Assembly (NCBI RefSeq): GCF_016863315.1
Contig: NZ_BOOQ01000009.1
Span: 62,001-126,000, forward strand
Direction: 5' to 3'
DNA length: 64,000 bases
Source: Planotetraspora silvatica
Lineage (GTDB): Bacteria > Actinomycetota > Actinomycetes > Streptosporangiales > Streptosporangiaceae
Positions 365-39,479 of this stretch are shown piece by piece. How positions within the stretch are numbered: position 1 is the stretch's first letter; every line of letters starts with the position of its first letter. A program made the position numbers and the translations under genes. Under the pieces are notes generated by a model. It was not told the origin of the DNA and did not search any database. It saw nothing but the letters and a program-made list of their open reading frames with translations.

Positions 365-660
365 GTGATCATGCACAGGTTCGGAAGAAGCGTGCCCGAC
401 CTGCGCACATTCAGTTCGTGATCATGCACGGGTTCGGAAGAAGCGTGCCCGACCTGCGCACATTCAGTTCGTGATCATGCACACTTTCGTGTATCCATAC
501 CGTGACCAGCGGAAACGCGGTTGGTGATCTGGCGATGGTCGAGTGCATGATCACGGAGGGTATCGCCCCAGCTCATGCGATGTGATCACGAACCTGTGCA
601 TGATCACGGCAGAGGAAACGCCTGGTCACGGGGCTTGATCACGAACCTGTGCATGATCAC
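365..660. repeat. Mirror-symmetric array of a 12-bp core, 3 forward + 3 inverted copies, 53-bp period
   Basis: The core GTGATCATGCAC occurs at 365-376, 418-429 and 471-482. Its reverse complement occurs at 543-554, 596-607 and 649-660. Every neighbouring pair within an arm is exactly 53 bp apart, and all six copies are symmetric about 512.5. Units 365-417 and 418-470 are identical except for one base. A TTCG tetranucleotide follows most cores three bases later (extended consensus CGTGATCATGCACNNNTTCG). The array fills the space between the ABC-F-like gene and the convergent carbonic anhydrase gene. No coding potential is seen in it. Confidence 0.95.
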
Positions 661-685
661 GACGAGGAGGGTCGCGGCGAGGGGG

Positions 686-1474
686 TTAGTGGGTGGAGAT
701 GGTGGGGGGTGGAAAGTTGGGCTGGAGTTCTCGTGAGTTGCCTTCGCCGGTCGGCCACAACGACCTGAACGTCCGGATGCCCTCGCGGCCCGCCTTCGCC
801 CGCTGGCCGAACACGACCCAGTTCACGGGCTGGAAATAGGTTCCCTCCTCGTCCGGCGTGGTCAGCGACCCTGTGTAGCGAAAGGTCGTACGCCCGATGG
901 GCAGTAAGTCCCAAAGATGAATGTTCCGGACATCTCTGGACATCCCCAATGCCGGAGGTGACGTGAGGAGACGGTCGTGCTCGGAGGGCCGTCCGTCGTT
1001 TCTCTGGTCGAGCAGGACGGACAGGACGGCATAACCCCTCTCGCCCGAAGTCTTCTCGTGCACGAGGTGCGCCTCTACGGGGGCGAACGGCTCGCCGGCG
1101 AATTTGTGCTCCGCATGGCCGTGAAAGTGCACGTTGCTCAGGTCGTATCGCTCGCCGCCGAGAGTGATGTACGGCCGGGCACGCTCGTCTTCGACGACGA
1201 ACCTGATGTCGTCGTGCTCGCTCAGCCGGCCGCCGATGGGAGCCCGGTCCTGGAAGAGGATCTTGCCGTCCACGTTGGGCGGATAGTGGATGACGAGGCG
1301 CGGAACGGCGCGACGGCAGGCGGTCGCGCGGTCGATCTCCACGGGGGACTGGACGGCCGCGTCGGTCCCCGCGCGCCCACAAGGCGGCCTGTGCGCCGTG
1401 GCGTGGGCGGGGATGACGAGCGGGGTGAGGCCGATGACGGCGGCCGCCGATAACACGGCGAAACGAGGAAGCAT
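686..1474 (-). CDS. Secreted alpha-class carbonic anhydrase
   Basis: A 262-aa protein; family role is reversible CO2 hydration with a zinc ion. It begins with a Sec signal peptide (Met, Arg, then a hydrophobic AVLSAAAVIGLTPLVIPAHA stretch). Alpha-CA landmarks appear in order: QSPVEID, then HFHGHAEHKF with the paired zinc histidines, EAHLVHE with the third, then GSLTTP and a C-terminal N-x-R-x-x-Q-like NSRELQ. The start at 1474 puts the signal peptide at the N-terminus, with GAGGGG about 9 bases upstream; in-frame ATGs at 1510 and 1564 are alternatives. A good promoter lies at 1567-1595. Active extracellularly by inference. Confidence 0.85.
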   Translation of the reverse strand: MLPRFAVLSAAAVIGLTPLVIPAHATAHRPPCGRAGTDAAVQSPVEIDRATACRRAVPRLVIHYPPNVDGKILFQDRAPIGGRLSEHDDIRFVVEDERARPYITLGGERYDLSNVHFHGHAEHKFAGEPFAPVEAHLVHEKTSGERGYAVLSVLLDQRNDGRPSEHDRLLTSPPALGMSRDVRNIHLWDLLPIGRTTFRYTGSLTTPDEEGTYFQPVNWVVFGQRAKAGREGIRTFRSLWPTGEGNSRELQPNFPPPTISTH

Positions 1475-1566
1475 GCGCGGGAACCCCTCAGTGGTCGGCA
1501 CCGAATGGGGCATTGAGCGCGAGCCTCTTTGCTCACATCCGGGGGGATATGCATGGCATTTCAACC

Positions 1567-1595
1567 TTTATAGATTGCCGACCGCTTGACACCAA
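1567..1595 (-). promoter_or_regulatory. Promoter of the carbonic anhydrase gene with overlapping inverted repeat
   Basis: Read on the - strand: TTGGTG (1595-1590), 17 bp, TATAAA (1572-1567), a near-consensus housekeeping promoter. A perfect 6-bp inverted repeat TGACAC-CAAT-GTGTCA (1587-1602) covers the -35 element and could be a repressor site. Confidence 0.6.
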
Positions 1596-1645
1596 TGTGT
1601 CATCAATCACAGTGCATATCCGTCAAGAGGGTCTTGCGCATTTCG

Positions 1646-1675
1646 GAAAAAACAGCGATAAGTCGCTCTGTTTTG
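1646..1675 (-). terminator. Rho-independent terminator after the MarR gene
   Basis: On the - strand a hairpin with arms AAAACAGAGCGA and TCGCTGTTTT (two unpaired bases) is followed by a run of T, about 70 bp past the MarR stop codon. Confidence 0.6.
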
Positions 1676-1745
1676 TGCGGCGCGCAACGCCGTACGCCGC
1701 GAGGAGGCGGTCCATCGCGAGAGGAAACGAGAGGGAGTCCGGGAG

Positions 1746-2270
1746 CTAGTGCGCGGCTTCCGCGGAGGCGTCGAACGGCACGAGCAGCGTGCGCAGCAGT
1801 CCGGCGAGCACCTGCCGTTCGTGCTCGTCCAGCCCGGCCAGAAGTTCCCGCTCGCGGCGGAGCAGATCGGCGAAGGCGGCGTCCACCCGCTCCAGTCCGG
1901 CGGGGGTGAGGCGCACCAGTACGCCGCGCCGGTCCTCGGGGTCGGGACGCCGGACCACGAGCCCGGAGGCCGCCAGGCGGTCGATCCGGTTGGTCATCGT
2001 GCCGGAGGTGACCAGTGTGGCCCGCAGCAGCGCACCGGGGCTCAGCTCGTACGGCTCGCCTGACCGGCGAAGCGCGGTCAGCACGTCGAACTCCCACGAC
2101 TCGACGCCGTGTTCGGCGAAGGCGGCACGTCGTTCGCGCTCAAGGTGCCTGCTCAGCCGCGAGACCCGGCTCAGCACCTCCAGCGGCGCGACGTCCAGGT
2201 CGGGCCGCTCCTGCTGCCAGGCTGCGACCAGACGGTCCACCTCGTCCTCGACGGGCCTCGAGAAGGTCAT
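1746..2270 (-). CDS. tamR: MarR-family regulator, probable TamR
   Basis: A 174-aa MarR-type winged-helix repressor: dimerisation helices at both ends, a recognition-helix region around TLVTSGTMTNRIDRLAASGLV and the conserved wing DPEDRRGVLVRLT. It is divergent from the trans-aconitate methyltransferase gene, and the 86-bp gap carries two copies of an 18-bp palindrome. In Streptomyces the MarR protein TamR sits in the same arrangement, controls tam and responds to aconitate/citrate-type ligands; TamR is therefore the best assignment here, from gene order and operator rather than from a ligand signature. Autoregulation is likely because one operator copy lies 15 bp from its own start. Confidence 0.8.
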   Translation of the reverse strand: MTFSRPVEDEVDRLVAAWQQERPDLDVAPLEVLSRVSRLSRHLERERRAAFAEHGVESWEFDVLTALRRSGEPYELSPGALLRATLVTSGTMTNRIDRLAASGLVVRRPDPEDRRGVLVRLTPAGLERVDAAFADLLRRERELLAGLDEHERQVLAGLLRTLLVPFDASAEAAH

Positions 2271-2284
2271 GCGCAGAGTCTAGC

Positions 2285-2302
2285 TTTCTTGACGTCGAGA
2301 TA
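2285..2302. promoter_or_regulatory. MarR/TamR operator copy 1
   Basis: TTTCTTGACGTCGAGATA matches operator copy 2 at 15 of 18 positions and lies just upstream of the MarR gene. Confidence 0.6.
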
Positions 2303-2319
2303 TCTTCCACGATATCGAT

Positions 2320-2337
2320 TATCTTGATGTCAAGATA
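2320..2337. promoter_or_regulatory. MarR/TamR operator copy 2 (perfect palindrome)
   Basis: TATCTTGATGTCAAGATA, 8-bp perfect arms around TG, ends 19 bp before the methyltransferase start. The core TCTTGA-N2-TCAAGA is a typical MarR-family site. Confidence 0.75.
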
Positions 2338-2356
2338 AGTATCGGGGAGGATGCTG

Positions 2357-3115
2357 ATGGATCACGATATCTGGGACCCGGCGATCTACCGGGCCTACGC
2401 CGGGGAGCGTTCGAGGCCATTCTTCGACCTGGTCGCACGCGTGGGGGCCGAAACGCCCGAATACGTGGTCGACCTGGGCTGCGGCAGTGGCGAGCTGACC
2501 GCGTCGTTGTGCCGGCGCTGGCCGGCGGCGGCGGTGCACGGGGTGGACTCCTCGCCCGCGATGATCGAGGACGCGCCGGCGGGGCCGACGTTCGAGGTCG
2601 CCGACGTCCGTGACTGGCGGCCCGCCCGTCCCGTCGATGTGATCGTCTCGAACGCCGTGCTGCAGTGGGTGCCCGGGCATCTCGACCTGCTCGAACGCTG
2701 GATCGGCGATCTGGCGGAGGGCGGCTGGCTGGCCTTCCAGGTCCCCGGGAACTTCGGCTCGCCGAGCCATTCGATCATCCGGGAGCTGTGCCGTACGGAA
2801 TGGCGGGACCGGCTGGGCGACCTGGCCCAGCGGACGCCGGTCGCGGAACCGGTCGAGTACCTGCGGCGGCTCGCCGCCCTCGGATGCGCGGTCGACACCT
2901 GGGAGACGACCTACGTCCACGTGCTCCAGGGAGAGGACGCGGCGCTCACGTGGGTGCGGGGCACGGCCCTGCGGCCGATCCTCGACCGGCTGTCCCCCGG
3001 GGAGCAGGAGGCCTTCCTCGCCGAGTGCGGCCGCCGTCTCCGCGAGGCCTACCCGCGTGAGCCGTACGGCACGGCGTTCCCTTTCAGAAGAATCTTCCTG
3101 GTCGCCCATAAATAG
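2357..3115 (+). CDS. tam: Trans-aconitate 2-methyltransferase
   Basis: A 252-aa class I SAM methyltransferase. Motif I VVDLGCGSG is at residues 37-45, the ribose-binding acidic residue at GVD (62-64), and the family-typical start (DHDIWDPAIYRAYAGERSRPF) and NAVLQWVPGH segment fit Tam. The enzyme methylates trans-aconitate, which forms spontaneously from cis-aconitate and inhibits aconitase. ATGs at 2351 and 2357 compete; GGGGAGG at 2344-2350 is directly against the first and six bases from the second, so 2357 is chosen. Divergent from its probable regulator. Confidence 0.88.
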   Translation: MDHDIWDPAIYRAYAGERSRPFFDLVARVGAETPEYVVDLGCGSGELTASLCRRWPAAAVHGVDSSPAMIEDAPAGPTFEVADVRDWRPARPVDVIVSNAVLQWVPGHLDLLERWIGDLAEGGWLAFQVPGNFGSPSHSIIRELCRTEWRDRLGDLAQRTPVAEPVEYLRRLAALGCAVDTWETTYVHVLQGEDAALTWVRGTALRPILDRLSPGEQEAFLAECGRRLREAYPREPYGTAFPFRRIFLVAHK

Positions 3116-3186
3116 CCGAAGGCCGCATATATTCCATTTAAGGTGGAATTGCCGCGTCAAATAAGGTTCCGACGCTAGGGGTGATC

Positions 3187-4641
3187 ATGACGATCGAGAT
3201 CGAAGACAAGTTCGACGTGCCATCCGAGTTCGGCCTGCCGGACCTGAGTGATGTCAAGGGTTGCGCCGAGGTGGCCCAGCCTCTCAGCCACAAGCTCGTC
3301 GCGCTGTACTTCGATACCCCGGACCTGCGGCTGGCCGCGCGCGGGATCACCCTGCGCCGCCGTCGTGGCGGCGACGACGAGGGCTGGCACCTCAAGCTGC
3401 CCAAGGCCAAGCGAGCCAGGCAGGAGATCACTGTCCCGCTGACGCGCAGCGCCAAGATCGTGCCTCCGGAGCTCGCCGAGCTCGTCCTCGCCTACACCAG
3501 GGGCGCGGCCCTGGCCCCCGTCGCCCAGCTCGAGACGCGGCGGGGCGTCACCCGGCTCATCGGCCCCGAAGGCCAGGCGCTCGTGGAGGTCGCGGACGAC
3601 CGTGTCAAAGGCACCGTGCTCGGTGACGAGCCCCGCGTTGTCCGCTGGCGTGAGGTCGAGGCCGAGCTGAAGGACGGCGACCGCGACGTGCTCAGGCGCG
3701 TCGGGAAACGCCTTCTCAAGGCCGGGGCGACCCCCGCGGACGCGAGCAGCAAACTGGCCCGCCTCCTCGGCGGCGTCTCCCCCCGGCCGGAGACCGCGCT
3801 CGCCCCGGGGTCCGCGGGCGAGGTCGTCGTCGCCTATCTGAGAGGCCACGTCAAGGCGCTGACCGCCCAGGACCCGCGGGTACGGCGGGCCGAGGAGGAC
3901 GCCGTCCACCAGGCGAGAGTCGCCAGCCGGCGGCTGCGGAGCGCGTTCAAGGCCTTCAAGTCGATCCTCGGCGACACCGCCGAGCTGCAGGACGAGCTCA
4001 GGTGGATCGGTGAGGTGCTGGGCGAGGCGCGCGATCTGGAGGTCATCAGGGACAGGTTCGCCCGGCGTCTCGACGCCCTCGACCCCTCCCTGGTGGTGGG
4101 GCCCGTACGCCGGCGGCTGGGCGACGACCTGCTGACGCGGGAGCACGAGGCCTACGGCCGGATCCGCGAGGCGCTCAGCGGTGAGCGCTACTTCGCGCTG
4201 CTCGACGGCCTGGAGGAGTTCGTGGCCCGCCCCCCGCTGACCGATCGCGCGGCCGGCGACGCGGGCAAGGTGCTGGAGAAGATCGCGGACAAGGGATGGA
4301 AGCGGGTCGGCGACGCCTACGACGTCGCGCAGGCCATGGAGGACCTCGACCAGCGCGAGATCGCCATGCACGACGTCCGCAAGGCCGCCAAGCGGGCCCG
4401 CTACACCGCGGAGGCGGTCGGGCTGGCCGGGCTGGCCAAGCGGGCCGAGACCGTGCAGGAGGTGCTGGGCAGGCACCAGGACGGCGTGGTGGCCCAGGGG
4501 GTGCTCGCCGACGAGGCCGAGGCCGCCCGCGGCGCGGGCGAGGACACCTTCACCTACGGGGTCCTGGTCGGCCTGGAGCACGCGGACGCCGAGCGGGCCC
4601 ACGAGGAGTTCCCGAACGTGTGGGCCGACGTCAGCGGGTGA
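3187..4641 (+). CDS. CYTH-CHAD domain protein (triphosphate tunnel / polyphosphate-associated)
   Basis: A 484-aa two-domain protein. The N-terminal CYTH domain opens with the ExExK signature (EIEDK, residues 4-8) followed by alternating basic/acidic strands (LRRRRGG, REVEAEL). The helical CHAD domain (about 212-480) has the conserved histidine and arginine helices HQARVASRRLRSAFKAFK and MHDVRKAAKRARYTAEAVG. CYTH domains hydrolyse or bind triphosphate-containing molecules; CHAD binds polyphosphate. It is two genes from ppk, which makes polyphosphate, supporting a polyphosphate-linked role. Start at ATG 3187 preferred over GTG 3181. Confidence 0.85.
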   Translation: MTIEIEDKFDVPSEFGLPDLSDVKGCAEVAQPLSHKLVALYFDTPDLRLAARGITLRRRRGGDDEGWHLKLPKAKRARQEITVPLTRSAKIVPPELAELVLAYTRGAALAPVAQLETRRGVTRLIGPEGQALVEVADDRVKGTVLGDEPRVVRWREVEAELKDGDRDVLRRVGKRLLKAGATPADASSKLARLLGGVSPRPETALAPGSAGEVVVAYLRGHVKALTAQDPRVRRAEEDAVHQARVASRRLRSAFKAFKSILGDTAELQDELRWIGEVLGEARDLEVIRDRFARRLDALDPSLVVGPVRRRLGDDLLTREHEAYGRIREALSGERYFALLDGLEEFVARPPLTDRAAGDAGKVLEKIADKGWKRVGDAYDVAQAMEDLDQREIAMHDVRKAAKRARYTAEAVGLAGLAKRAETVQEVLGRHQDGVVAQGVLADEAEAARGAGEDTFTYGVLVGLEHADAERAHEEFPNVWADVSG

Positions 4642-4693
4642 CCCGGCACTCGACCATGGGTGAGGGCCAGGTCACCTGGACTCCACGTGCTCT

Positions 4694-4754
4694 AGGGTCA
4701 CGTGATGTAACGTGACCCGGCACTTCACAGGGGTGAGGGTCACGTGATGTAACG
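4694..4754. repeat. 19-bp direct repeat copying the 3' end of the MutT1-like gene
   Basis: AGGGTCACGTGATGTAACG occurs at 4694-4712 and again, 42 bp on, at 4736-4754. The second copy is the last codons and stop of the - strand Nudix gene. Flanking words (GTGACCCGGCACT and GGGTGAGGG) are also duplicated, pointing to an old local duplication. Confidence 0.7.
4695..4718. terminator. Hairpin between convergent genes
   Basis: Perfect 9-bp stem GGGTCACGT / ACGTGACCC with a 6-base loop, lying between the convergent CYTH-CHAD and MutT1 genes; likely a shared terminator although no T-run follows. Confidence 0.45.
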
Positions 4755-5639
4755 CTCGACGCTCACGAGGCGCCCGCCCGCCCGGTTCAGCACGGTGAAG
4801 GCCCCCTTGCCGAGCTGGCCCTCGGCGTCGTTCAGGCGGCTCTCACCCGCCATCGCGAGCAGTTCCGGCAGCACCTTGCCGTGGCTGCACACCACGGACG
4901 GCTCGCCCGACTCGATGAGCTCGCTCACCAGCCGCTCGGCGGCGCGCGGGTCGTAGCCGTCCTCGGACAGCGCCCCGTCCTCGCGGACGCGCATCCCCCG
5001 GCCGCCGGCGTACGGCCTCAGCATCTCGACGCAGCGCAGGCTGGGGGAGCTCACCAGAGCCGCCGGGCGGTAGGCGCCGAGCACCGCCGTGAAGGCCGCC
5101 GACTGCGCCCACCCGAACTCGTCGAGTGGGCGGAGATCGTCGTCGCCCGTCCACTCCTGGCGGGACCCGGCCAGGCCGTGCCGTACGAAGATCAGGGGAA
5201 CGGTCGCGAGCGGCAGAGCGGTCAGGGCCCTGAGCAGGCCCGCGTCCCACTCGTAGGTCAGCCGCCGTCTGGCCTCGTTCAGCGGAAGCCAGACGACCTC
5301 GTCCACCTCGTCGACCGTGATGATCTCCCCGCCGGGGCCGGAGGCCCGCGCCGCCCAGTAGTCCACCCGCTTGAGGCGGCCGTCCTTGAGGTAGTGGCTC
5401 GGCGGCAGGGACCGGCCGAACACCACGTCCAGGCCGGTCTCCTCCCGCACTTCGCGCAGGGCCCCGGCGATCATGTGCTCGCCCGGCTTGAGCTTCCCCT
5501 TGGGAAAACTCCAGTCGTCGTACTTCGGCCGGTGGACGAGGGCGACCTCGGGGTCGGTCTCGTCACCACGCCACACGACGGCTCCGGCCGCGCGGATCAT
5601 GTCGGTCATGCCGGTGGATCGAACCTCGGGTTCGAACAT
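4740..5639 (-). CDS. mutT1: MutT1-like Nudix hydrolase fused to histidine phosphatase domain
   Basis: A 299-aa fusion. The Nudix box is complete: G48, E54, then REVREETG at 62-69. A second domain starts with the histidine-phosphatase motif RHG (153-155) and has a later SHGK. The same fusion in mycobacteria (MutT1) degrades 8-oxo-dGTP and diadenosine polyphosphates, so nucleotide-pool cleaning is the likely role. Two nearby ATGs (5645, 5639) share the GAGGG upstream; 5639 has better spacing. It starts 10 bp past the ppk stop, so the two are probably co-transcribed, linking nucleotide hydrolysis to polyphosphate metabolism. Confidence 0.85.
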   Translation of the reverse strand: MFEPEVRSTGMTDMIRAAGAVVWRGDETDPEVALVHRPKYDDWSFPKGKLKPGEHMIAGALREVREETGLDVVFGRSLPPSHYLKDGRLKRVDYWAARASGPGGEIITVDEVDEVVWLPLNEARRRLTYEWDAGLLRALTALPLATVPLIFVRHGLAGSRQEWTGDDDLRPLDEFGWAQSAAFTAVLGAYRPAALVSSPSLRCVEMLRPYAGGRGMRVREDGALSEDGYDPRAAERLVSELIESGEPSVVCSHGKVLPELLAMAGESRLNDAEGQLGKGAFTVLNRAGGRLVSVERYIT

Positions 5640-5648
5640 GAGCATCCC

Positions 5649-7751
5649 TCAGTCCAGGCTGGTCGCGTCGTCCACGGCCCGCCAGCGCCTGCGTGCGATC
5701 AGGTGGTGCTGCAGATCGATCTCGCCGCGGTGACGCAGCCATTTCCCGTCGGAGTTCAGCGTCCACGCCGTCGTGGTGTCGCTCATGGCGAGGTCGAGGA
5801 GGTCGGACAGGTACTCGCGCTGCTGGCCGCTGGTCACCCTCACCAGAGCCTCGACGCGCCGGTCCAGGTTGCGGCGCATGAGGTCGGCGCTGCCGATCCA
5901 GATCTCCGACCGGTCGCCCTCGCCGAACTCGTACACCCTCGAGTGCTCGAGGAAACGGCCCAGGATGCTTCTGACCCGGATCGTCTCCGACAAACCGGGG
6001 ATGCCCGGCCTGAGCGTGCAGATTCCCCTGACCCAGAGATCGACCGGCACACCTGCCCGCGACGCCCGGTAGAGCGCGTCGATGAGCGGCTCGTCGACCA
6101 TCGAGTTCGTCTTGATGCGGATCCGCGCCGGGCGGCCGTTCCTGTGGTGCTCGATCTCGCCCTCGATCCTGGACAGCAGGCCCTGCCTGAGCGAGTCGGG
6201 CGCGACGAGCAGCCGGCGGTAGTCCTCCTGGATCGAGTAGCCGGTGAGGTGGATGAACAGATCCGTGACGTCCTCGCCCACCTGGGGGTCGGCCGTCAGC
6301 AGCCCGAAGTCCTCGTACTGCCTGGCCGTCTTCGGGTTGTAGTTCCCGGTGCCGATGTGGCAGTAGCGCCGCAGTTCGCCGTTCGCCTCCTGCCGGACCA
6401 CCAGGGCCAGCTTGGAGTGCGTCTTCAGCCCGAGCACGCCGTAGACGACGTGGCAGCCCGCCTTCTCCAGCTTGCGCGCCCAGGAGATGTTCGCGTGCTC
6501 GTCGAACCTGGCCTTGATCTCCACGACGACGACGACCTGCTTGCCGGCCTCGGCGGCGTCGATCAGGGCGTCCACGATGGGGGAGTCGCCGCTGGTCCGG
6601 TAGAGCGTCTGCTTGATCGCCAGGACGTCCGGGTCGGCCGCCGCCTCCTCCACGAACCGCTGGACGCTCGTGGCGAACGAGTCGTACGGGTGGTGCAGGA
6701 GGATGTCCCGCTCCCGCAGCGTGGCGAACAGGCCGTCCTCGGCGCTCACGGCCTCCGCCGGCACGAACCGGTTGAACTTCAGCTCGCTCCGGTCGAGGTC
6801 GGCGATGGCGTGCAGGCCGGTCAGGTCCAGCGGGCCGGGGAGCCGGTAGATCTCGTGGTCGGCCACCCGCAGTTCGTCGACGAGCAGGTCCAGCACCTCG
6901 GGGGTGATGGTGTCCTCGACCTCCAGGCGGACCGGCGGTCCGAACCGCCGGTGCCGGAGCTCCCGCTCCAGCGCCTGCATCAGGTTCTCCGTGACGTCCT
7001 CGTCGACCTCGAGGTCCTCGTTCCTGGTCACCCGGAAGGCGTGGTGCTCGACGATCTCCATGCCCTTGAAGAGCTCGCCCAGGTGGGCGGCGATGACGTC
7101 CTCCATCGGGACGAACCGGCTCTGCGACGCGGTGACGAACCTCGGCAGCTGCGACGGCACCTTCACCCGGGCGAAGACCGTGTTCCCGCTGATCGGGTTA
7201 CGGACGGTCACAGCGAGGTTGAGGGAAAGGCCGGAAATGTAAGGGAAGGGGTGTGCGGGGTCCACCGCGAGCGGGGTGAGCACGGGCCGGATCCGCTCCT
7301 GGAACAGCTTCCGCAGCGCCGTCCGCTCGTCCCGGCCGAGGTCGTCCCAGCGGACGATCTCGATCCCCTCCGCGGCAAGCTGGGGCAGCACGCCGTCGTG
7401 GAAGTCTCCGGCATGCCGGCGGGCGAGGTCGTCGGCGATGGCCGCGATCCGCGCCAGCTCCTCGCTGGGCTTCAGGCCGCTCTTGGTCCGCAGGAGCAGG
7501 CCGGTCGCCATCCGGCGCTTGAGGCCGGCCACCCGGACGCGGAAGAACTCGTCCAGGTTGCTTGCGAAGATCGCCAGGAATCTGACGCGTTCGAGTAGGG
7601 GGACCGACGGGTCCTCCGATAACTCCAGCACACGCTCGTTGAACTGGAGCCAACTCTCCTCCCGGTTGAGGAACCGGTCCTGGGGCAGCGGTGCGTCTTC
7701 GGGCAGGGTGGCATCCTCGGGTTTGGGCACGGAAGCGAATTCGGCGGACAT
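5649..7751 (-). CDS. ppk: Polyphosphate kinase 1
   Basis: A 700-aa protein of normal PPK1 length. It transfers the gamma phosphate of ATP reversibly onto polyphosphate. The N-terminal domain ([26 protein letters not shown]) and the two C-terminal catalytic domains are intact; the phospho-accepting histidine is expected at H445 (LKTHSK) and the second active-site histidine at H465 (CHIGTGNYN). It leads a - strand pair with mutT1. Codon 44 is a TTA leucine codon (7620-7622), rare at this GC content. The ribosome-binding site is weak (AGGG). Confidence 0.95.
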
Positions 7752-7809
7752 ATGACAAAATATGCCCTAATTCGTTGAACGGTACGTTAACTACGACGCA
7801 ACGAAACCG

Positions 7810-10030: not shown

Positions 10031-10062
10031 TGGCTACCTCGCGTGTGGGGAAGATGTCTGGC

Positions 10063-13350: not shown

Positions 13351-13404
13351 TTCGCGAGGGTCCCTGGTTCGCGAGGGGCGCGGCCTCCAAGGCGCCCCGA
13401 GCCC

Positions 13405-14144: not shown

Positions 14145-14158
14145 CACCGATGTGAGAC

Positions 14159-31092: not shown

Positions 31093-31313
31093 GGCCAACT
31101 CTCCGTGCCCCTCGCCCGGAGTCGAACTATAGGCCGGTGAGAGGTTTCCCCATCCGCTATTGAAGATTTTCCACGCAAGAATGACCGGATAGCGGTCGAC
31201 TTTTCTCGGAAATTTCTAGACAGATGAGTTGGTAAGAATGGCCCACCGACCGCCCCCTCTTGGTGGGAAGGTGAACCCCCGCGGGGATCCGGACCACACG
31301 ATGGGGGGAAACG

Positions 31314-32387
31314 GTGCGACGAACTGGGGGCGCCGGCTTGGCCGCACTTGCCGGCCTGGCCGTACTGATGGGGGCGGGCGCGGTGGGCTGCTCGGCCGCG
31401 TCGGGCACGTCGACGTCACGGGGGGTCGGGACGTTCCTCGACCAGACGCACAGGCCGCCGAAGGTCGCCAGTTGCGTGGTGACGGAGAAGCTGATTCCGA
31501 CGTGCGGGGCGTGGTGGGGGATCGCGCCCGACGTCTTCTCCGGCAGGCGTCCGCTGCAGTCCGTCGAGACGGCCGAGCGGCGGATGGGCCGCCGGGCGGA
31601 CATCGTGCACGTCTACCACCGGGGTGACGAACTGTTCCCCACGCCGCAGGAGCGCGCCATCGCGCAGGGTCCCCGCCTGCTGCTCGTCAACTGGAAACCG
31701 GCGCCGGACCGTTCGTGGGCCCAGGTGGCCCGAGGCGACGTGGACGACCGCATCGACGCGCTCGCCGGCTACATCACCCGGACCTTCCCCAGTCGCTTCT
31801 TCCTGACGATCCACCACGAGCCCGAGGACGACGTCCGCTCGGGCGCGGGGTTCTCGGCCACCGACTACGTGGCCATGTACCGGCACGTCGTCTCCCGCCT
31901 CCGGGCCAGGGGGGTGCAGAACGCCGTGACGGTGATGACCTACATGGGGGCGCCCAACTGGGCGTCCAAGCCGTGGTTCGAGTCGCTCTATCCGGGCGAC
32001 GACGTGGTCGACTGGGTCGCCATCGACCCCTACGCCGACTCCCAGGTGTCCGACTTCGCCGGCATGGTGAACAAGACGCGCCCGGAGTATCCCAAGTGGC
32101 CGGGCTTCTATCGGTGGATGCAGGGACGCTTCCCGGGCAAGCCGATCATGATCGCCGAGTGGGGGGCCTTCGAGCGATCGGGCTCGCCCAGGTTCAAGCG
32201 CGACTTCTACCTGTCCGTCGCGCGGCAGATCGACGACTACCCGCAGATCAAGGCGCTGGTGTACTTCGACTCGCCGGTGGCTCCGCGCGGCGACACCCGG
32301 TTCGACACGACTCCGGGGGGCGGCCGCGCGTTCGCCGAACTCGGCCGGGAGCCCGAGTTCACCGGCACCCGCGTCCCCACCCGCTGA
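31314..32387 (+). CDS. Glycoside hydrolase family 26-like lipoprotein
   Basis: A 357-aa protein with a lipoprotein signal peptide (hydrophobic 8-22, cysteine C26 in GAVGC). The catalytic domain has the GH26 acid/base context TIHHEPEDD (E169) and nucleophile context MIAEWGAF (E282), plus WVAIDPYAD. GH26 enzymes cut mannan or related beta-glycans; here editing or release of the locus polysaccharide is likely. GTG 31314. Divergent from the - strand operon across a 220-bp gap that should hold both promoters. Confidence 0.82.
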   Translation: MRRTGGAGLAALAGLAVLMGAGAVGCSAASGTSTSRGVGTFLDQTHRPPKVASCVVTEKLIPTCGAWWGIAPDVFSGRRPLQSVETAERRMGRRADIVHVYHRGDELFPTPQERAIAQGPRLLLVNWKPAPDRSWAQVARGDVDDRIDALAGYITRTFPSRFFLTIHHEPEDDVRSGAGFSATDYVAMYRHVVSRLRARGVQNAVTVMTYMGAPNWASKPWFESLYPGDDVVDWVAIDPYADSQVSDFAGMVNKTRPEYPKWPGFYRWMQGRFPGKPIMIAEWGAFERSGSPRFKRDFYLSVARQIDDYPQIKALVYFDSPVAPRGDTRFDTTPGGGRAFAELGREPEFTGTRVPTR

Positions 32388-32411
32388 TCTCGCGGGCGGG
32401 GACGCCGCGGC

Positions 32412-33629
32412 TCAGCGGATCCAGCCCCCGGAGGTGAGCAGGTTGAGCACCGTGTTCACGGAGCGCTCGACCGTCATCCCCGTGGTGTCGAGCACGAGTT
32501 CGGCGTCGTCGGGCTCCTCGTACGGATCGGAGATCCCCGTGAACTCGGGGATCAGGCCCGCGCGGGCCTTGGCGTACAGGCCCTTCCTGTCGCGGCGCTC
32601 GCACTCCTCCAGCGGGGTCGCGACGTGGACCAGCAGGAAGTCGGCGCCGACCTCCTCCACCATGGCCCGCACCTCGTCGCGCGTGGACGCGTAGGGCGCG
32701 ATCGGCGCGCAGATGGCGAGGCCGCCGTGCCGGGCGACCTCCGCCGCGACGAAGCCGATGCGCCGGATGTTCAGGTCGCGATCCTCGCGGGAGAAGGTGA
32801 GCCCGGCCGACAGCAGCCGCCGCACCACGTCGCCGTCCAGGTAGGTGACCGTGCGCCCGCCTCGCTCGAGCAGCGTGTCGCGCAGGCCGCGCGCGACCGT
32901 CGACTTGCCCGAGCCGGACAGGCCGGTGAAGAACACCACGAGTCCCCGCCGGTGCGGCGGTCCCGGGATGACGATGGGGGCGGGGCCGGCGTAGTGCTCG
33001 GTCGCGCCGTAGTTGCGCGCCACGTGCTCGCGCAACTCCAGGTCGATCTCGGTGTCCTCGCGGGGCGCGAGCGGCACGGCGACCACGGTCGATCCGGGGA
33101 GCCGCTCCGACGCCTTGAGCGCGGCGCGCACCACCGCGGGCCCGCCCTCGCCGAACACCAGCGGCATCAGGACGACGGTGGCCTCCAGTTCCTCGGCGGT
33201 CGCCGCCACGTCCTCGAGGACGGTGGAGTCCAGCGGCCCCCGCATGGTCACGGCGAGGATCTCCCCGTGCGGCAGATCCTTGCGGACCTCGTCGGGCGTA
33301 CGGCGCAGCCGGGCGAACGGCCCGAAGACGGGCACGTCGAGCGCCTTCACGGGGCCTGCCGCGTGGTGGCCGTCCCGCTCCTCCACGGTCAGCACGGCCA
33401 CCGCCGCACCCTCGGGATCCTTGAGCGTCACCCGGGCGCCGGGCGGGACGTCGTCCGGAAGGGCGAGCGTGATCGGGTCCGGCCAGGGCGTCCCGTCGGA
33501 CAGCGTGCCGTTCTCGGCCACCGCGCTCGCGTCGGCCGAGGTCAGGAAGCCGGTCAGCGGCGCGAAGGCCCCGGAGAGCAGCAACTCCAGATCGGCCAGC
33601 TCCCGGGCGTCGGGAGTCCACTCAGTCAT
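32412..33629 (-). CDS. cysC: Adenylylsulfate kinase with degenerate ATP-sulfurylase N-domain
   Basis: A 405-aa fusion. The C-terminal half (228-405) is a complete APS kinase: P-loop GLSGSGKS (236-243), YLDGDVVRR and KGLYAKARAG. It makes PAPS from APS. The N-terminal half has the PUA-like and partial sulfurylase fold (LLLSGAFAPLTGFL, ARNYGATEHYAG), but the sulfurylase nucleotide motifs (QxRNPxH and GRDHAG) are absent and the domain is about half normal length, so it is probably inactive. ATG 33629. It completes the PAPS route begun by cysDN. Confidence 0.87.
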   Translation of the reverse strand: MTEWTPDARELADLELLLSGAFAPLTGFLTSADASAVAENGTLSDGTPWPDPITLALPDDVPPGARVTLKDPEGAAVAVLTVEERDGHHAAGPVKALDVPVFGPFARLRRTPDEVRKDLPHGEILAVTMRGPLDSTVLEDVAATAEELEATVVLMPLVFGEGGPAVVRAALKASERLPGSTVVAVPLAPREDTEIDLELREHVARNYGATEHYAGPAPIVIPGPPHRRGLVVFFTGLSGSGKSTVARGLRDTLLERGGRTVTYLDGDVVRRLLSAGLTFSREDRDLNIRRIGFVAAEVARHGGLAICAPIAPYASTRDEVRAMVEEVGADFLLVHVATPLEECERRDRKGLYAKARAGLIPEFTGISDPYEEPDDAELVLDTTGMTVERSVNTVLNLLTSGGWIR

Positions 33630-33737
33630 TCGTCTATTCCGATCGATTCGGTCGCCAACACACATCGCGTCGTTCGGACGCATAGCGGGAGGGTGCGCAC
33701 GGCGTCTAGAAGCCGACAGTATTCCTTGGAGGTGACT

Positions 33738-34026
33738 GTGGACGCCGCAGACGAGCGACGTTTCCGAGAGTTCGTGTCGGCGCGCTCGCCGGCGCTGATG
33801 AGGCCGGCGTTCCTCCTGACCGGAGGCGATCAGCACACCGCCGAGGATCTCGTGCAGACCGCCCTCGCGAAGGCCCGGACGGGGCTGCGCGGGCGGGTGC
33901 GGCGACGAGTTCGACGACGGGCTGGTCCTGGTGAGCGTGGACGGCAGGCGGGCCGTTCAGCTGTGGCGCCACCGCTGGGACCCGCAGTCCCGGATGTGGT
34001 GGCTGACGGTCCTCACCCTCCGCTAG
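33738..34026 (+). pseudogene. Remnant: SigE-family ECF sigma start joined to another gene's end
   Basis: GTG 33738 (GGAGG six bases upstream) begins a SigE-type sigma region 2: FREFVSARSPALMRPAFLLTGGDQHTAEDLVQTALAK. Similarity stops near 33880, before region 4. From about 33900 the coding sense moves to a different frame that reads CGDEFDDGLVLVSVDGRR to a TAG at 34024-34026, the end of an unrelated protein. This looks like a deletion that fused two genes' ends out of frame. Confidence 0.7.
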
Positions 34027-34754
34027 ATGAGGCGGGCGAAATGGTTCTGGGGCTTGCGGACGACCATGCAGACCTCGTCGTTCGTGCCGGAGAGGCGGTC
34101 ACCGGACAGGGCGGCGACGGCGCCGCAGACCGCTTTGACGAGTCCGGCGTGCGGCCCACGCCGGGCCGGGCCGGTCGCGCCGGAGTAGTCCTCGGCGATC
34201 ATCAGGCCGCGCATCAGGCAGTACGCCTGGATGCCCTCACGGGAGGCGATCGGCTCGTAGACCGCCGGTAGCGGGCCCACGGACCCGGCGGGCATCAGGC
34301 TCCTCCACAGGGCCCCCCGCAACCAGGAGGGCGCCATCCGGTCGCAGAAGCCGTACGCCGACCTGCGATCCCTGGCCTTGATCAGCAGCAGGCCGCCGGG
34401 CCGGAGCCCTCCGACCAGGCGGTCGAGCACGAGCTCGGCGTTGTGGATGCGTTCCAGCAGGAACGACACGTGGACCACGTCGAAGGAGCGCGGCGGGATG
34501 GGCACCTTGCGCATGTCGTCGAGGTACCACGCGTCCAGGTCCTGGCGTGAGGCGGTGTGGGCGCGCAGTGGCGGCAGGTCCTCGTCCACCCCCGTGACCA
34601 GGGGATCGGATCGGCCGACGTCCAGCGTGCCGCCCCGTCCGCATCCGGCGACCAGGATGTCGAGGCGCCGCCCCAGCTGCTCGGTCCACTGCTCGCGGAC
34701 TCGCTGACCGAAAACGTCATCCTCGCCGACGGGCGACCACTGAACCTCAGGCAT
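34023..34754 (-). CDS. SAM-dependent methyltransferase (class I)
   Basis: A 243-aa protein with motif I ILVAGCGRGGTL (33-44), motif II GVDED and the post-motif FDVVHVSFLLERI; later GLRPGGLLLIKARD. Substrate unknown. ATG 34754 chosen; GTG 34772 is possible. It converges on the sigma remnant and its stop overlaps that remnant's stop. Confidence 0.8.
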   Translation of the reverse strand: MPEVQWSPVGEDDVFGQRVREQWTEQLGRRLDILVAGCGRGGTLDVGRSDPLVTGVDEDLPPLRAHTASRQDLDAWYLDDMRKVPIPPRSFDVVHVSFLLERIHNAELVLDRLVGGLRPGGLLLIKARDRRSAYGFCDRMAPSWLRGALWRSLMPAGSVGPLPAVYEPIASREGIQAYCLMRGLMIAEDYSGATGPARRGPHAGLVKAVCGAVAALSGDRLSGTNDEVCMVVRKPQNHFARLI

Positions 34755-34926
34755 GCCACAGAGCGTAACCACCTAAGTGCGATGAGTAGAGCATTTGCGG
34801 TGCCGGGGTTTCGGCGGCTTCGGGGCTCCTGCCCGGTGCGGGGGCCGACGGGCGTAGCCTGGGTAACCCCGGTCCATATCTGGCTCGGGCCATTTCGCTT
34901 GCCGTCGTGGGGCTCTGAAGGCATAA

Positions 34927-37900
34927 ATGTCTCTTTCCGGACTGCTCGATCTTGTCGCCGCCGAACCGAAACTGGCCGCCGTTCTCGAAGGAGCCGGCGG
35001 CTCCGCCGATCCCGGCGCCGACCTGATCGCGCCGTCCGCGCTCCGGCCGCTGGCCGTGGCCGCCCTCTCCCGTGTCCGTCCCGTGCTCGCGGTGACCGCG
35101 ACCGGCAGGGAGGCCGAGGACCTCGCCGCCGCCCTCACCGGGCTGGTCGACGAGAGCTCGGTGGCGGTCTTCCCCGCGTGGGAGACCCTTCCGCACGAAC
35201 GGCTCTCGCCCCGGAGCGACACGGTCGGCCAGCGGCTCGCCGTACTGCGCCGCCTGGCCCACCCGGTCGCGGGCGACCCGAACGCAGGGCCGCTCCAGGT
35301 TGTCGTCGCCCCTGTCCGCTCGTTGCTGCAGCCGATCGTGTCCGGCCTCGGCGACCTCGAGCCCGTACGGCTCAGCGCGGGTGACGACGCCGATCTCGAC
35401 GACGTCGTGGCGCAGTTGGTCGGCAACGGCTACCACCGCGTCGACATGGTCGAAAAGCGCGGGGAGGTCGCCGTCCGCGGCGGCCTGCTCGACGTCTTCC
35501 CGCCCACCGAGGAGCACCCGCTGCGGCTGGAGTTCTGGGGCGACACGGTCGAGGAGATCCGCTGGTTCAAGGTCGCCGACCAGCGCTCGCTGGAGATCGC
35601 GCAGGACGGCCTGTTCGCCGCGCCCTGCCGCGAGCTGCTGCTCACCGACGACGTACGGCTACGCGCCCGCGAGCTGGGGGAGGAGCACCCCGCGCTGAAG
35701 GAGGTGCTCGACCAGCTCGCCGAGGGTGTGCCGGTGGAGGGCATGGAGGCGTTCGCCCCGGTCCTGGCCGGCTCGATGGACCTGCTGCTCGATCACCTGG
35801 CCGTCCGCTCGGCCGTGTTCGTCTGCGACCCCGAGCGCATCCGGAGCCGGGCCGTCGAGCTGGTGCGGACCAGCCAGGAGTTCATGGAGGCGTCCTGGAT
35901 CACCGCCGCCGCAGGCGGGGAGGCGCCGATCGACCTCGAGGCGGCCGCGTTCCGGACGCTGGAGGACGTTCAGGGCCACGCCCGCGAGCTGGGCCAGGCG
36001 TGGTGGAGCATCGCGCCCTTCGGCGACGGGGCCGAGCTGGACGCCCATGACGTCGAGGCCTACCGCGGCGACACCCAGCGCGCGCTGGCCGACATCAAGG
36101 GGTGGCTGGGCGCGGGCAAGTCGGTCGTGCTGCTCAGCGAGGGCCACGGCCCGGCCGACCGCATGGTCGAGCTGCTCAAGGGCGTCGACGTGGCGGCCAG
36201 GCTGACGCCCTCGCTCGACGCCCCGCCGCCGCGTGACGTCGTCCAGGTCACCACCGGCCGCCTCGACCACGGATTCGTCATCCCCGGCCTGGCCGTACTG
36301 ACCCATCTCGACCTGGTCGGGCAGAAGGCGTCGACCAAGGACATGCGGCGGCTGCCGTCGCGGCGCCGCAACATGGTCGATCCGCTCCAGCTGAAGGTCG
36401 GCGACCACGTCGTGCACGAGCAGCACGGCGTGGGGCGCTACATCGAGATGGTCCAGCGCACGATCCAAGGGGCGACCAGGGAGTATCTCGTCATCGAGTA
36501 CGCCAAGGGCGACCGGCTCTACGTGCCGACCGACCAGCTCGACGAGGTCACCCGCTACGTCGGAGGAGAGGCGCCGACCCTCAACCGCATGGGCGGCGCC
36601 GACTGGGCCAAGGCCAAGACCAAGGCCAGGAAGGCCGTCAGGGAGATCGCGGGCGAGCTGATCCGGCTCTACTCGGCCCGGATGGCGTCCCCCGGCCACG
36701 CCTTCGCGTCCGACAGCCCCTGGCAGCGCGAGATGGAGGACGCCTTCCCGTACGCCGAGACCGGCGACCAGCTGGAGGCGATCGACGAGGTCAAGCGGGA
36801 CATGGAACGACCGGTCCCGATGGACCGTCTGATCTGCGGCGACGTCGGGTACGGCAAGACCGAGATCGCGGTGCGGGCCGCGTTCAAGGCGGTCCAGGAC
36901 GGCAAGCAGGTCGCCGTGCTCGTGCCGACCACGCTGCTCGTCCAGCAGCACCTGTCGACGTTCGGCGAGCGGTTCGCCAGCTTCCCCGTCACGGTGAAGC
37001 CGATGTCCCGCTTCCAGACCGACGGCGAGGTCAAGGAGACGATGGAGGGGGTCAGGAACGGCGCCGTCGACGTCGTGATCGGCACCCACCGCCTGCTGTC
37101 GCCCGAGGTCAGGTTCAAGGACCTCGGCCTGATCATCGTGGACGAGGAGCAGCGGTTCGGCGTCGAGCACAAGGAGGCCATGAAGCACCTCCGCACCCAG
37201 GTCGACGTGCTCGCCATGTCGGCCACGCCGATCCCGCGCACGCTGGAGATGGGCCTGACCGGCATCCGCGAGATGTCCACGATCCTCACCCCGCCTGAGG
37301 AGCGCCACCCGATCCTCACGTTCGTCGGACCGTACGACGAGAAGCAGATCGCGGCGGCGATCAGGCGCGAGCTGATGCGCGACGGCCAGACCTTCTTCGT
37401 GCACAACCGCGTGCGCAGCATCGACAGGGTGGCCGCGCGGCTCCACGAGCTGGTCCCCGAGGCGCGGATCGCCGTCGCCCACGGCCAGATGAACGAGCAC
37501 CAGCTCGAAAAGATCATGGTGGACTTCTGGGAGCGCAACTTCGACGTGCTCGTCTGCACCACGATCGTCGAGTCCGGCCTCGACGTGCCCAACGCCAACA
37601 CGCTCATCGTGGATCGGGCGGACAACTACGGCCTGTCGCAGCTGCACCAGCTTCGCGGCCGGGTGGGGCGGGGACGCGAGCGCGGCTACGCCTACTTCCT
37701 CTACCCGCCGGAGTCCCCGCTGACCGAGACCGCACACGAGCGGCTCGCCACGATCGCGCAGCACACCGAGATGGGCGCGGGCATGTACGTCGCGATGAAG
37801 GACCTGGAGATCCGCGGCGCCGGCAACATCCTCGGGGCGGAGCAGTCGGGCTTCATCGCCGGCGTCGGCTTCGACCTCTACGTGCGGATGATGTCCGAGG

Positions 37901-38424
37901 CCGTGCAGGAGCAGAAGTCCAAGCTGTCCGGGGAGCCCGAGGTCGAGGAGCGGACCGACGTCAAGGTCGAGTTGCCGATCAACGGGCATGTGCCTCACGC
38001 TTACGTGACGTCGGAGCGGCTGCGGCTCGAGGCGTACAAGCGCATCGCCGCGATCGCGTCCGAGGACGACATCGCGGCCGTCCGCGACGAGCTGACCGAC
38101 CGGTACGGCAGGCCGCCGCAGGAGGTGGACAACCTCCTGGAGGTGGCGCGGTTCCGGATCAAGGCCCGCAAGGCCGGGCTGACCGACGTCACCCTGCAGG
38201 GCCAGCAGATCAGGTTCGCGCCCGTGGTTCTGCGGGACTCCCAGCAGGTGCGGCTGCAGCGGCTGTATCCGCGGTCGATCGTCAAGCAGGCCACCGAGGT
38301 CCTGCTGGTGCCGGTGCCCAAGACCAAGCCCATCGGCGGTCAGCCGCTGCGGGACCTGGAGCTGCTGAAATGGTGCGGAGACCTGGTCGACGCCATGTTC
38401 CTTGAACCCATACGGGTACAGTGA
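34927..38424 (+). CDS. mfd: Transcription-repair coupling factor
   Basis: An 1165-aa protein of normal Mfd length. It displaces stalled RNA polymerase and recruits UvrA. N-terminal UvrB-like domain, RNA-polymerase-interacting region around VGDHVVHEQHGVGRYIEM, helicase motif I CGDVGYGKTE (about 637-646), motif II DEEQ (739-742), motif VI HQLRGRVGRG and the C-terminal D7 domain. ATG 34927. Followed by the surA-like gene in the standard actinobacterial order. Confidence 0.97.
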   Translation: MSLSGLLDLVAAEPKLAAVLEGAGGSADPGADLIAPSALRPLAVAALSRVRPVLAVTATGREAEDLAAALTGLVDESSVAVFPAWETLPHERLSPRSDTVGQRLAVLRRLAHPVAGDPNAGPLQVVVAPVRSLLQPIVSGLGDLEPVRLSAGDDADLDDVVAQLVGNGYHRVDMVEKRGEVAVRGGLLDVFPPTEEHPLRLEFWGDTVEEIRWFKVADQRSLEIAQDGLFAAPCRELLLTDDVRLRARELGEEHPALKEVLDQLAEGVPVEGMEAFAPVLAGSMDLLLDHLAVRSAVFVCDPERIRSRAVELVRTSQEFMEASWITAAAGGEAPIDLEAAAFRTLEDVQGHARELGQAWWSIAPFGDGAELDAHDVEAYRGDTQRALADIKGWLGAGKSVVLLSEGHGPADRMVELLKGVDVAARLTPSLDAPPPRDVVQVTTGRLDHGFVIPGLAVLTHLDLVGQKASTKDMRRLPSRRRNMVDPLQLKVGDHVVHEQHGVGRYIEMVQRTIQGATREYLVIEYAKGDRLYVPTDQLDEVTRYVGGEAPTLNRMGGADWAKAKTKARKAVREIAGELIRLYSARMASPGHAFASDSPWQREMEDAFPYAETGDQLEAIDEVKRDMERPVPMDRLICGDVGYGKTEIAVRAAFKAVQDGKQVAVLVPTTLLVQQHLSTFGERFASFPVTVKPMSRFQTDGEVKETMEGVRNGAVDVVIGTHRLLSPEVRFKDLGLIIVDEEQRFGVEHKEAMKHLRTQVDVLAMSATPIPRTLEMGLTGIREMSTILTPPEERHPILTFVGPYDEKQIAAAIRRELMRDGQTFFVHNRVRSIDRVAARLHELVPEARIAVAHGQMNEHQLEKIMVDFWERNFDVLVCTTIVESGLDVPNANTLIVDRADNYGLSQLHQLRGRVGRGRERGYAYFLYPPESPLTETAHERLATIAQHTEMGAGMYVAMKDLEIRGAGNILGAEQSGFIAGVGFDLYVRMMSEAVQEQKSKLSGEPEVEERTDVKVELPINGHVPHAYVTSERLRLEAYKRIAAIASEDDIAAVRDELTDRYGRPPQEVDNLLEVARFRIKARKAGLTDVTLQGQQIRFAPVVLRDSQQVRLQRLYPRSIVKQATEVLLVPVPKTKPIGGQPLRDLELLKWCGDLVDAMFLEPIRVQ

Positions 38425-38519
38425 CCGCGGATTGGCGGTCTCACGGCGCTCGCGCGAGATCGCGCAAAAGACAGAGAACCGGCACAATTGCCTGGCCGGT
38501 GTCCTCGGGAGGATCGTTC

Positions 38520-39143
38520 GTGAAGTCATATCAAGTGCGCGTCGCCGTGGCCGTCGCGGTGGCCGGTGTCGCATTGAGCGCGTGTGGCCCCGTGCAGGCC
38601 GGCGCCGCGGCCATCGTGGGCAAGGAACGCATCGCCGCCAGTGACTTGGACACCAAGATCCAGGACTTCCGCAAGGATCTGGCCGCCCACAAGATGACCG
38701 AGGACCAGCTCGGCCTCAGGATCCCGTTGACGCAACTGATCCTGCTTCGGCTGGCCAACGACGAGCAGTACATCCAGCTCGGCAAGCAGCGGGGCATCGC
38801 CGTCACCCAGCGGGACATCGACGACGTCATCGCGTCGCAGGGCGGCCAGTCGCAGACGGACGCGGCGCTGCTGCAAAGTGGTGTCCCGCTGTCCATGGGC
38901 CGGGAGTTCATCAGCTCGCTGATCATCCAGCAGAAGCTGGTCGAGCAGGCGGGCGGTGGGGTCGATCAGCAGAGCCAGCAGGCCGCTCTGCAGAAGGTGA
39001 CCCAGGAGGCCGACACCAAGGTCCCGATGCGCTTCAGCCCGCGGTACGGCAAGTTCGACGCCCAGCAGGGGTTCCTGCCCGACGAACGCTTCGGCAAGGT
39101 TCCCGCCCCCGAGCAGCCCCCCGCCGCCGCCCCTCCCGCGTGA
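38520..39143 (+). CDS. SurA N-terminal-domain lipoprotein
   Basis: A 207-aa protein with a lipoprotein signal (lipobox LSAC, C22) and a SurA-N helical chaperone domain (VGKERIAASDLDTKIQDF ... QRDIDDVIASQ); the peptidyl-prolyl isomerase domain is absent. Probably an extracytoplasmic chaperone. GTG 38520 has GGGAGG upstream. Its stop codon (39141-39143) is the TGA of the first core in the second repeat array. Confidence 0.85.
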   Translation: MKSYQVRVAVAVAVAGVALSACGPVQAGAAAIVGKERIAASDLDTKIQDFRKDLAAHKMTEDQLGLRIPLTQLILLRLANDEQYIQLGKQRGIAVTQRDIDDVIASQGGQSQTDAALLQSGVPLSMGREFISSLIIQQKLVEQAGGGVDQQSQQAALQKVTQEADTKVPMRFSPRYGKFDAQQGFLPDERFGKVPAPEQPPAAAPPA

Positions 39144-39479
39144 TCATGCACACATTCGGTGCCGGCCGTACGGACCTGCGCGAACTCTCGGCGTGATCAT
39201 GCACAAGTTCGTGAAAAGGCCCCTTCGCCTGCCACGACTCATTTCGTGATCATGCGCGGATTCGTAAAGTTCCACACTGATCTGCGGGAGGAAGGTTCGT
39301 GATCATGCAATTGCATGATCACGAATCGCGTTTCCCCTGCGTGACGCACCTTCCGCCGAGCCTGCGCATGATCACGCACGGAGAAGTGGCTGGTCGGAGC
39401 CGAATCCACGAACCCGTGCATGATCACGCGTGGGAAAGCGGCCGGTCAGGGGCCGATCCACGAACCCGTGCATGATCAC
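39140..39479. repeat. Mirror-symmetric array of the same 12-bp core, 4 forward + 4 inverted copies
   Basis: Forward cores at 39140, 39193, 39246 and 39299 (all 53 bp apart); inverted cores at 39311, 39364, 39416 and 39468 (53, 52, 52 bp). Cores match GTGATCATGCAC with one change at 39246 (CGC end) and at the centre. The two innermost copies join as a perfect 30-bp palindrome (39296-39325, half-site TTCGTGATCATGCAA). It fills the surA-mazG gap, starting in the surA stop codon and ending 29 bp before mazG. Confidence 0.95.

Follow-up and report, generated by a model that had tools for sequence, protein, structure and literature searches.

The window, a 64,000-nucleotide stretch of the Planotetraspora silvatica genome (contig NZ_BOOQ01000009.1, positions 62,001 to 126,000), carries two arrays of a short core, CGTGATCATGCAC, at 364-661 (array 1) and 39139-39480 (array 2), and we found that both are members of a genome-wide family of extragenic repeats in this Planotetraspora-type genome. 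Observed directly in the family are a two-block repeat unit, a strict spacing with spacer letters that are free to vary, a location mostly at gene ends, cores that are kept better than spacers, core dialects shared across whole lineages, and a lower frequency of strong hairpins in those convergent gaps that hold an array. Such a combination, and above all the strict spacing with free spacer letters and the dialects, fits a single repeat family bound by a DNA-binding protein, as the first-pass annotation of the window had suggested. We regard protein binding as such as probable. That the arrays are binding platforms whose role is, most likely, to mark the boundaries of transcription units is our preferred but more tentative reading, held with somewhat less than even confidence.

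Architecture and copy number of the arrays

The two arrays had been proposed from the letters of the window to share core, period, and symmetry despite their distance from each other, and both proved to be present at those very places. The three cores of either arm of array 1 follow one another at steps of 53 and 53 bp, with 60 bp between the arms, while the steps in array 2 are 53, 53, and 53 bp in the plus arm and 53, 52, and 52 bp in the minus arm, and its two inner cores abut to give a 26-bp perfect palindrome (Table 1). With up to two mismatches allowed, 21 core matches occur in the window, as against 2.1 expected and a maximum of 6 in 100 shuffles.

Genome-wide, in a draft of 8.66 Mb and 117 contigs, there are 654 exact copies of CGTGATCATGCAC on both strands, and none of the reversed control. 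In the 919 kb of this genome that were read, every one of the 119 exact copies belongs to one of 26 arrays of at least three cores (185 cores in all at up to two mismatches), and a single copy falls inside a predicted gene. By extrapolation, the genome would hold about 245 arrays, or roughly one per 35 kb. Among 68 arrays classified in five genomes, 29 have one arm only.

From 121 aligned units of the window genome with a 53-bp step, the unit consensus was read as CGTGATCATGCACAGgTTCGG.Ga.aggcC..CtGACCTGCgC..AC.Cc, in which block A is the core plus TTCG (CGTGATCATGCACnnnTTCG) and block B is GACCTG at +34. The extended consensus given earlier (ending in NNNTTCG) holds by majority rule, and the CTGCGC word placed in the spacer is indeed conserved, though as the tail of the second conserved block, GACCTGCG at +34, rather than as a word of its own. 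Moreover, across five genomes the step between same-strand neighbours (core pairs at most 130 bp apart) is 53 bp in 250 of 314 cases, 52 bp in 34, 54 bp in 7, and 51 bp in 3. Spacer identity is nonetheless low, at 0.459 for neighbouring units, 0.406 for non-adjacent units on the same arm, and 0.408 for units of different arrays (same five genomes), from which it follows that most units are old and that spacer length is kept while the letters are free. The offset between inner cores varies widely (13, 19, 23-24, 30, 40, 46-50, 66-67, 73-79 bp, and more), so one helix face is maintained within an arm and not across the whole array; the view that all cores share one face from both sides is borne out for the 53-bp steps of each arm, but not between arms.

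Core dialects and distribution among relatives

The carriers belong to a little-studied group of soil actinobacteria, in which the core takes on dialects: CGTGATCATGCAC in most Planotetraspora, CGTGATCATGCAG in P. thailandica, and CGTGATCTTGCAG in Microbispora and genus g34. Counts of CGTGATCATGCAC and CGTGATCATGCAG are 654 and 34 in the window genome, 583 and 41 in P. mira, and 151 and 730 in P. thailandica. A change of core between lineages is seen at the mazG site as well, whereas block B and the 53-bp step stay unchanged across the dialects.

In 120 relatives, the exact 13-mer occurs 151-583 times in four congeners, 469 times in G062, 29 times in G053, 18 times in G054, and 0-4 times in the others. 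Tandem cores 52-54 bp apart were detected in 15 of 341 genomes of the family, or 14 once G019 (a 17-bp tandem) is discarded, and these comprise six Planotetraspora-type genomes, five of the 15 of the genus Microbispora, both g34 genomes, and G054. In the stretches of G054 that were read, 9 of 11 steps are 41 bp and 2 are 53 bp. The core in G053 stands in inverted pairs, mostly 56-61 bp apart, which in two stretches recur start-to-start at about 152 bp in a REPIN-like fashion.

A looser core pattern was found in 12 of 394 genomes sampled from the class. Reading outside the family covered G465, G105, G524, and G656 and left out G507, G635, G698, and G706 (one match each); the first three have arrays of the same 12-base core with other extensions, and G656 proved to be a 17-bp tandem. 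In G105, a 3.1-Mb genome of another family of the class, the 12-base core has the extension TCCCGCCACCCC, and 9 of 12 close same-strand pairs of CGTGATCATGCAG have a 37-bp step, with 38-60 bp in the stretches read; 37 bp corresponds to 3.5 helical turns. G465, a 4.3-Mb genome likewise from another family of the class, has often converging arrays of CGTGATCATGCA[CG]RTCCTGGG at a loose spacing of 32-55 bp, and its inner pairs form a hairpin of about 20 bp. The 12-base core is thus widespread in other Actinomycetia but with different steps (often 41, 37, or 32-35 bp), so that the five-turn step is lineage-specific. Five-turn phasing holds for the 53-bp majority in the Planotetraspora-like group and is no general rule for the repeat family.

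Conservation and turnover of array sites

By MazG, the nearest named relatives are P. mira (96%) and P. phitsanulokensis (93%). Over nine orthologous array pairs between the window genome and G003, identity is 94.6% in cores (764 positions), 64.4% in spacers (1886), and 84.7% in flanks (2515), figures that favour cores somewhat, since cores tend to anchor the alignment and their positions were picked by core matches in one genome. An array is common to both genomes at all eight sites where both flanking genes are comparable. Against Microbispora sp. H11081 or genus g34, array presence differs at all five comparable syntenic sites, where an array of 4-9 cores in one genome corresponds to a gap of 62 to 272 bp in the other; three of three Microbispora or g34 array sites are array-free in the window genome, and two of two in the opposite direction. 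At the mazG site, the window genome and all four named Planotetraspora have an array, as do 2 of the 10 loci read in Microbispora. The array at smr/dhaM is found in the window genome, P. mira, G003, and P. thailandica, and A-T 1434 retains one core there. About 500 bp of array in congeners stands where P. phitsanulokensis has none.

The main competing explanation is a REP-like mobile or self-spreading extragenic family (REP, repetitive extragenic palindrome), driven by an enzyme other than the REP-associated tyrosine transposase (RAYT). In such a family, the core would be the recognition site of the enzyme, the dialects would track the enzyme, and gene ends would be harmless places for insertion. 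The differing sites between genera speak for it, as do the patchy occurrence (14 of the 341 genomes of the family, together with some from three other families) and the REP-like inverted pairs in G053. Yet sites are stable within the genus, and little recent copying is visible, since spacer identity rises above 70% in only 0.2% of 9172 unit pairs sampled across different arrays. Moreover, no enzyme gene recurs beside the arrays in the stretches read, and the IS200/IS605-type Y1 transposase PF01797 gave no hit in the window genome and is lacking in 12 of the 17 genomes that bear arrays (it is present in four of seven Microbispora without 53-bp pairs). Mobility alone would also leave unexplained a strict 53-bp spacing that persists after the spacers have diverged. 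We thus consider a mobile family possible, but on the unlikely side.

Arrays at gene ends and the proposed boundary role

Our preferred reading, that the arrays are protein-bound boundaries, starts from the two-block unit. A putative sequence-specific protein would read block A and block B of the 53-bp unit and assemble head-to-tail over 3-5 units, keeping to the helical phase. With most of them at the 3' end of a transcription unit, the arrays would then most likely act as a protein roadblock or insulator, and this boundary would stand in for, or reinforce, hairpin terminators. Here, we infer the protein, the cooperativity of its assembly, and a possible block to RNA polymerase from the form and placement of the arrays.

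Placement was examined in gaps of at least 50 bp, with genes called by a simple codon-usage caller, and six clusters with an overlapping gene call or a missing flanking gene were set aside (one each in G000, G003, and G309, and three in G062). In three genomes, an array is present in 21 of 140 convergent gaps, in 36 of 540 tandem ones, and in 2 of 216 that are divergent (Fisher P against divergent gaps of 1e-7 for convergent and 4e-4 for tandem). The one clearly divergent site that was read (C2:401195 in the window genome) has flanking genes that are not regulator-like. When genes that begin or end no more than 250 bp from an array were collected from eight genomes, 119 of 167 face it with their 3' end and 48 with their 5' end. 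In fact, in the 919 kb of the window genome, the TGA of the core is itself the stop codon in 8 of 26 gene 3' ends that adjoin an outer core, one of these being core 1 of array 2 (Table 1).

Genes that recur beside arrays across lineages amount to three small families (3, 3, and 2 members among the 167 array-adjacent genes), by eye ABC-type ATPases, pentapeptide-type proteins, and leuA-type proteins. Among these recurring families in the stretches read, no recombinase or regulator was recognised by eye, and no replication or partition gene. Arm pairs that enclose genes were also listed, and a gene between the arms of an autonomous element was rejected as a reading.

A link to terminators is suggested by hairpins in convergent gaps of five genomes. 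A hairpin of -25 kcal/mol or better is present in 7 of 26 gaps with arrays as against 89 of 135 without, even though array gaps are longer. GC content differs between the two (0.63 with arrays versus 0.74 without), and after correction for composition, the median hairpin excess over shuffles is -0.8 kcal/mol with arrays versus -5.3 kcal/mol without (P 0.025). Five array-free counterparts in sister genera have hairpins of -18.7 to -42.3 kcal/mol, values that are usual for such gaps and are given without a shuffled control. We take this hairpin deficit as suggestive of, rather than proof of, a tie between arrays and the terminator role.

Several results weigh against a boundary role. One-armed arrays in tandem gaps run with transcription in 13 cases and against it in 9, unlike a strict one-way block, and no candidate binding protein emerged from a comparison limited to the array-adjacent genes of the stretches read. 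Carriers are a minority, with 10 of 15 Microbispora genomes lacking a 53-bp pair, and spacing is other or loose beyond the Planotetraspora-like group. Moreover, a hairpin excess of at least 8 kcal/mol beyond shuffles (5 of 26 versus 48 of 135) does not differ significantly (P 0.12), and hairpins in pieces of up to 40 nt show no difference between array and array-free gaps (P 0.33). Some arrays even adjoin a strong hairpin (the inner end of 6 of 29 one-armed arrays), so that coexistence is possible. Finally, P. phitsanulokensis (L281) is without the smr/dhaM array, and the fewer than 20 bp between its two convergent stop codons leave no room for a hairpin either.

The density and location of the arrays could alternatively point to chromosome organisation, in which a nucleoid, topology, or segregation protein anchors domains or absorbs supercoils at converging genes. 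Arrays that are enriched between convergent genes, occur about once per 35 kb (26 in 919 kb), and have a tuned spacing would suit such sites. However, regularity along the chromosome goes beyond chance on one stretch (P 0.019) and not on three others (one of the four stretches had 3 arrays only), and arrays are lost or absent in close relatives. Chromosome-organising sites are accordingly unlikely in our estimate. By the same token, we found no evidence for the earlier proposal of a protein that spreads toward the array centre in connection with replication or segregation.

DNA or RNA as the recognised form

A structured-RNA family had likewise been put forward for the arrays, and we weighed it as transcribed 3'-end structures or bidirectional hairpin terminators. 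At the centres of two-armed arrays, 37 of 39 hairpins have a z below -2, in part by construction, and the inner pair can be altered in both arms at once, reading ...CATGCAATTGCATG... in Planotetraspora and ...CTTGCAATTGCAAG... in Microbispora H11081; in A-T 1434, it is CGTGACCTTGCAC facing its own complement. Such two-sided changes, however, can be explained equally by a central hairpin and by a protein complex that sits there symmetrically.

Within the unit, the strongest position dependencies (60 shuffles, 1378 pairs) are between neighbouring bases, and the distant pairs 0-16, 37-43, 42-51, and 2-36 score z 5.8-6.8. A unit hairpin of CAGGT (+12..16) and ACCTG (+35..39) was considered and rejected, since the two words are complementary in the consensus but show no covariation (mutual information z of -0.8 to 1.7 for five pairs in two unit sets). 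A long RNA duplex between the arms was rejected as well, with mirrored spacers no more complementary (0.406) than non-mirrored (0.405) or unrelated ones (0.408). A strong hairpin (z below -2) at the inner end is seen in just 6 of the 29 one-armed arrays, array orientation is not tied to transcription, and Rfam gave no match over array 2 up to an E of 1, and at gathering scores only two tRNAs over the whole window. An RNA element is on these grounds quite improbable, and the idea of a structured-RNA family found no support. In one one-armed array (G000:C2:346753-346926), the last core lies inside a 19-bp perfect hairpin made from neighbouring spacer.

Comparison with known systems

Like REP, BIME, and REPIN elements with their RAYT (TnpA-REP), the family has hundreds of clustered extragenic copies, inverted arrangements, and dialects between genomes. 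According to PMC3733652, REP units are imperfect palindromes tagged GTAG or CGTC. Although the extragenic location and high copy number agree (654 cores; 1 of 119 in a gene), the unit here (CGTGATCATGCACnnnTTCG...GACCTG) is not palindromic, shows no pairing covariation, begins with CGTG, and lacks both tags (GTAG and CGTC) at the conserved end. Its units moreover follow one another head-to-tail every 53 bp, either in a single arm or in two that converge, mostly in genomes without PF01797, and membership in the REP/RAYT group was rejected. The repeats of a CRISPR array have a single orientation, whereas many arrays here have two converging arms. The GATC within the core had been pointed out as a methylation-type site, but the window genome gave no hit to the Dam-type methyltransferase PF02086, the one methyltransferase family searched for, and by this measure the arrays do not correspond to a Dam/SeqA-type system; PF02086 does occur in 5 of the 17 genomes with arrays and in none of seven Microbispora without 53-bp pairs.

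DNA uptake sequences, as in Neisseria and Haemophilus, combine a short core with dialects and inverted pairs. A DNA-uptake-type signal with species dialects would accordingly share the short conserved core, the lineage dialects, and the inverted pairs of our family. Uptake sequences are, however, scattered, also in coding regions, while none of the 119 exact cores in the part read is a dispersed single copy and just one is inside a predicted gene. We hold an uptake signal to be highly improbable.

The helically phased multi-site operators and iterons of plasmid partition or replication arrays also have head-to-tail sites, constant spacing, and divergent spacers, but the arrays here are chromosome-wide, at gene ends, and often of two converging arms. 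Array-type roadblock terminators, such as TTF-I at the Sal boxes of mammalian rDNA and Reb1 in yeast, likewise have protein-binding sites repeated just past the end of a transcription unit. Unlike these, our arrays are bacterial, occupy hundreds of loci, and keep strict 53-bp steps, and here both the protein and its blocking are postulated. A bacterial counterpart might be pictured, in which hundreds of gene ends carry phased arrays, a lineage-specific protein bound to them takes over from hairpin terminators as the transcription boundary, and the whole set of sites is re-tuned together whenever the specificity of that protein drifts; each lineage would have settled on its own step (53, 41, 37, or 32-35 bp). 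We find this extended scenario, taken as a whole, rather doubtful.

Extragenic repeat arrays are themselves of a known kind, and what is unusual here is the geometry and the evolution of the dialects. Strict spacing and lineage-wide dialects without a REP transposase would amount to a natural experiment in which a DNA-binding protein and hundreds of its sites would change together. Should the arrays indeed end transcription, they would be a protein-based alternative to hairpin terminators in high-GC actinobacteria, with a use in insulating gene clusters. With so many arrays per genome and array-free close relatives, the trans-acting factor should be findable by gene-content comparison. We found no published description of these arrays or their motif in the open-access literature, a search that left subscription journals and bioRxiv largely outside its scope and so does not prove the family undescribed. 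The 13-mer lies inside one predicted ArgR site in a table of PMC5839063, which we take as chance.

Arrays of the window and their neighbouring genes

Table 1. Core arrays of the window, their parts, and adjoining genes (window coordinates).
Feature	Position	Strand	Remarks
Array 1, two-armed	364..661	.	3 + cores, 3 - cores; in convergent gap
Left neighbour of array 1, ABC-type ATPase gene end	stop 343-345		Named by eye from sequence
Array 1 core 1	364..376	+	Exact
Array 1 unit 1, block B (GACCTG)	398..403	+	+34 from core start; position by reading, block from consensus
Array 1 core 2	417..429	+	Exact
Array 1 core 3	470..482	+	Exact; inner core of + arm
Array 1 core 4	543..555	-	Exact; inner core of - arm
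Array 1 extra TGATCA half-site	581..593	+	3 mismatches to core; 15 bp ahead of core 5
Array 1 core 5	596..608	-	Exact
Array 1 extra TGATCA half-site	631..643	-	2 mismatches to core
Array 1 core 6	649..661	-	Exact
Right neighbour of array 1, carbonic anhydrase gene	686-1456	-	
Array 2, two-armed	39139..39480	.	4 + cores, 4 - cores; in tandem gap
Array 2 setting			Downstream of transcription-repair coupling factor (mfd-type) gene
Left neighbour of array 2, SurA-like gene	38421-39143	+	Pfam match under curated cut-off
Array 2 core 1	39139..39151	+	Exact; core TGA (39141-39143) is the surA-like stop codon
Array 2 core 2	39192..39204	+	Exact
Array 2 core 3	39245..39257	+	1 mismatch
Array 2 central 26-bp perfect palindrome	39298..39323	.	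Inner cores 39298-39310 (+) and 39311-39323 (-), 1 mismatch each
Array 2 core 6	39364..39376	-	1 mismatch
Array 2 core 7	39416..39428	-	Exact
Array 2 core 8	39468..39480	-	Exact
Right neighbour of array 2, MazG gene	coding from about 39491 or 39557 to 40465	+	

Besides the full cores, TGATCA half-sites were noticed 15 or 18 bp ahead of a core, both in array 1 of the window (Table 1) and in other arrays.

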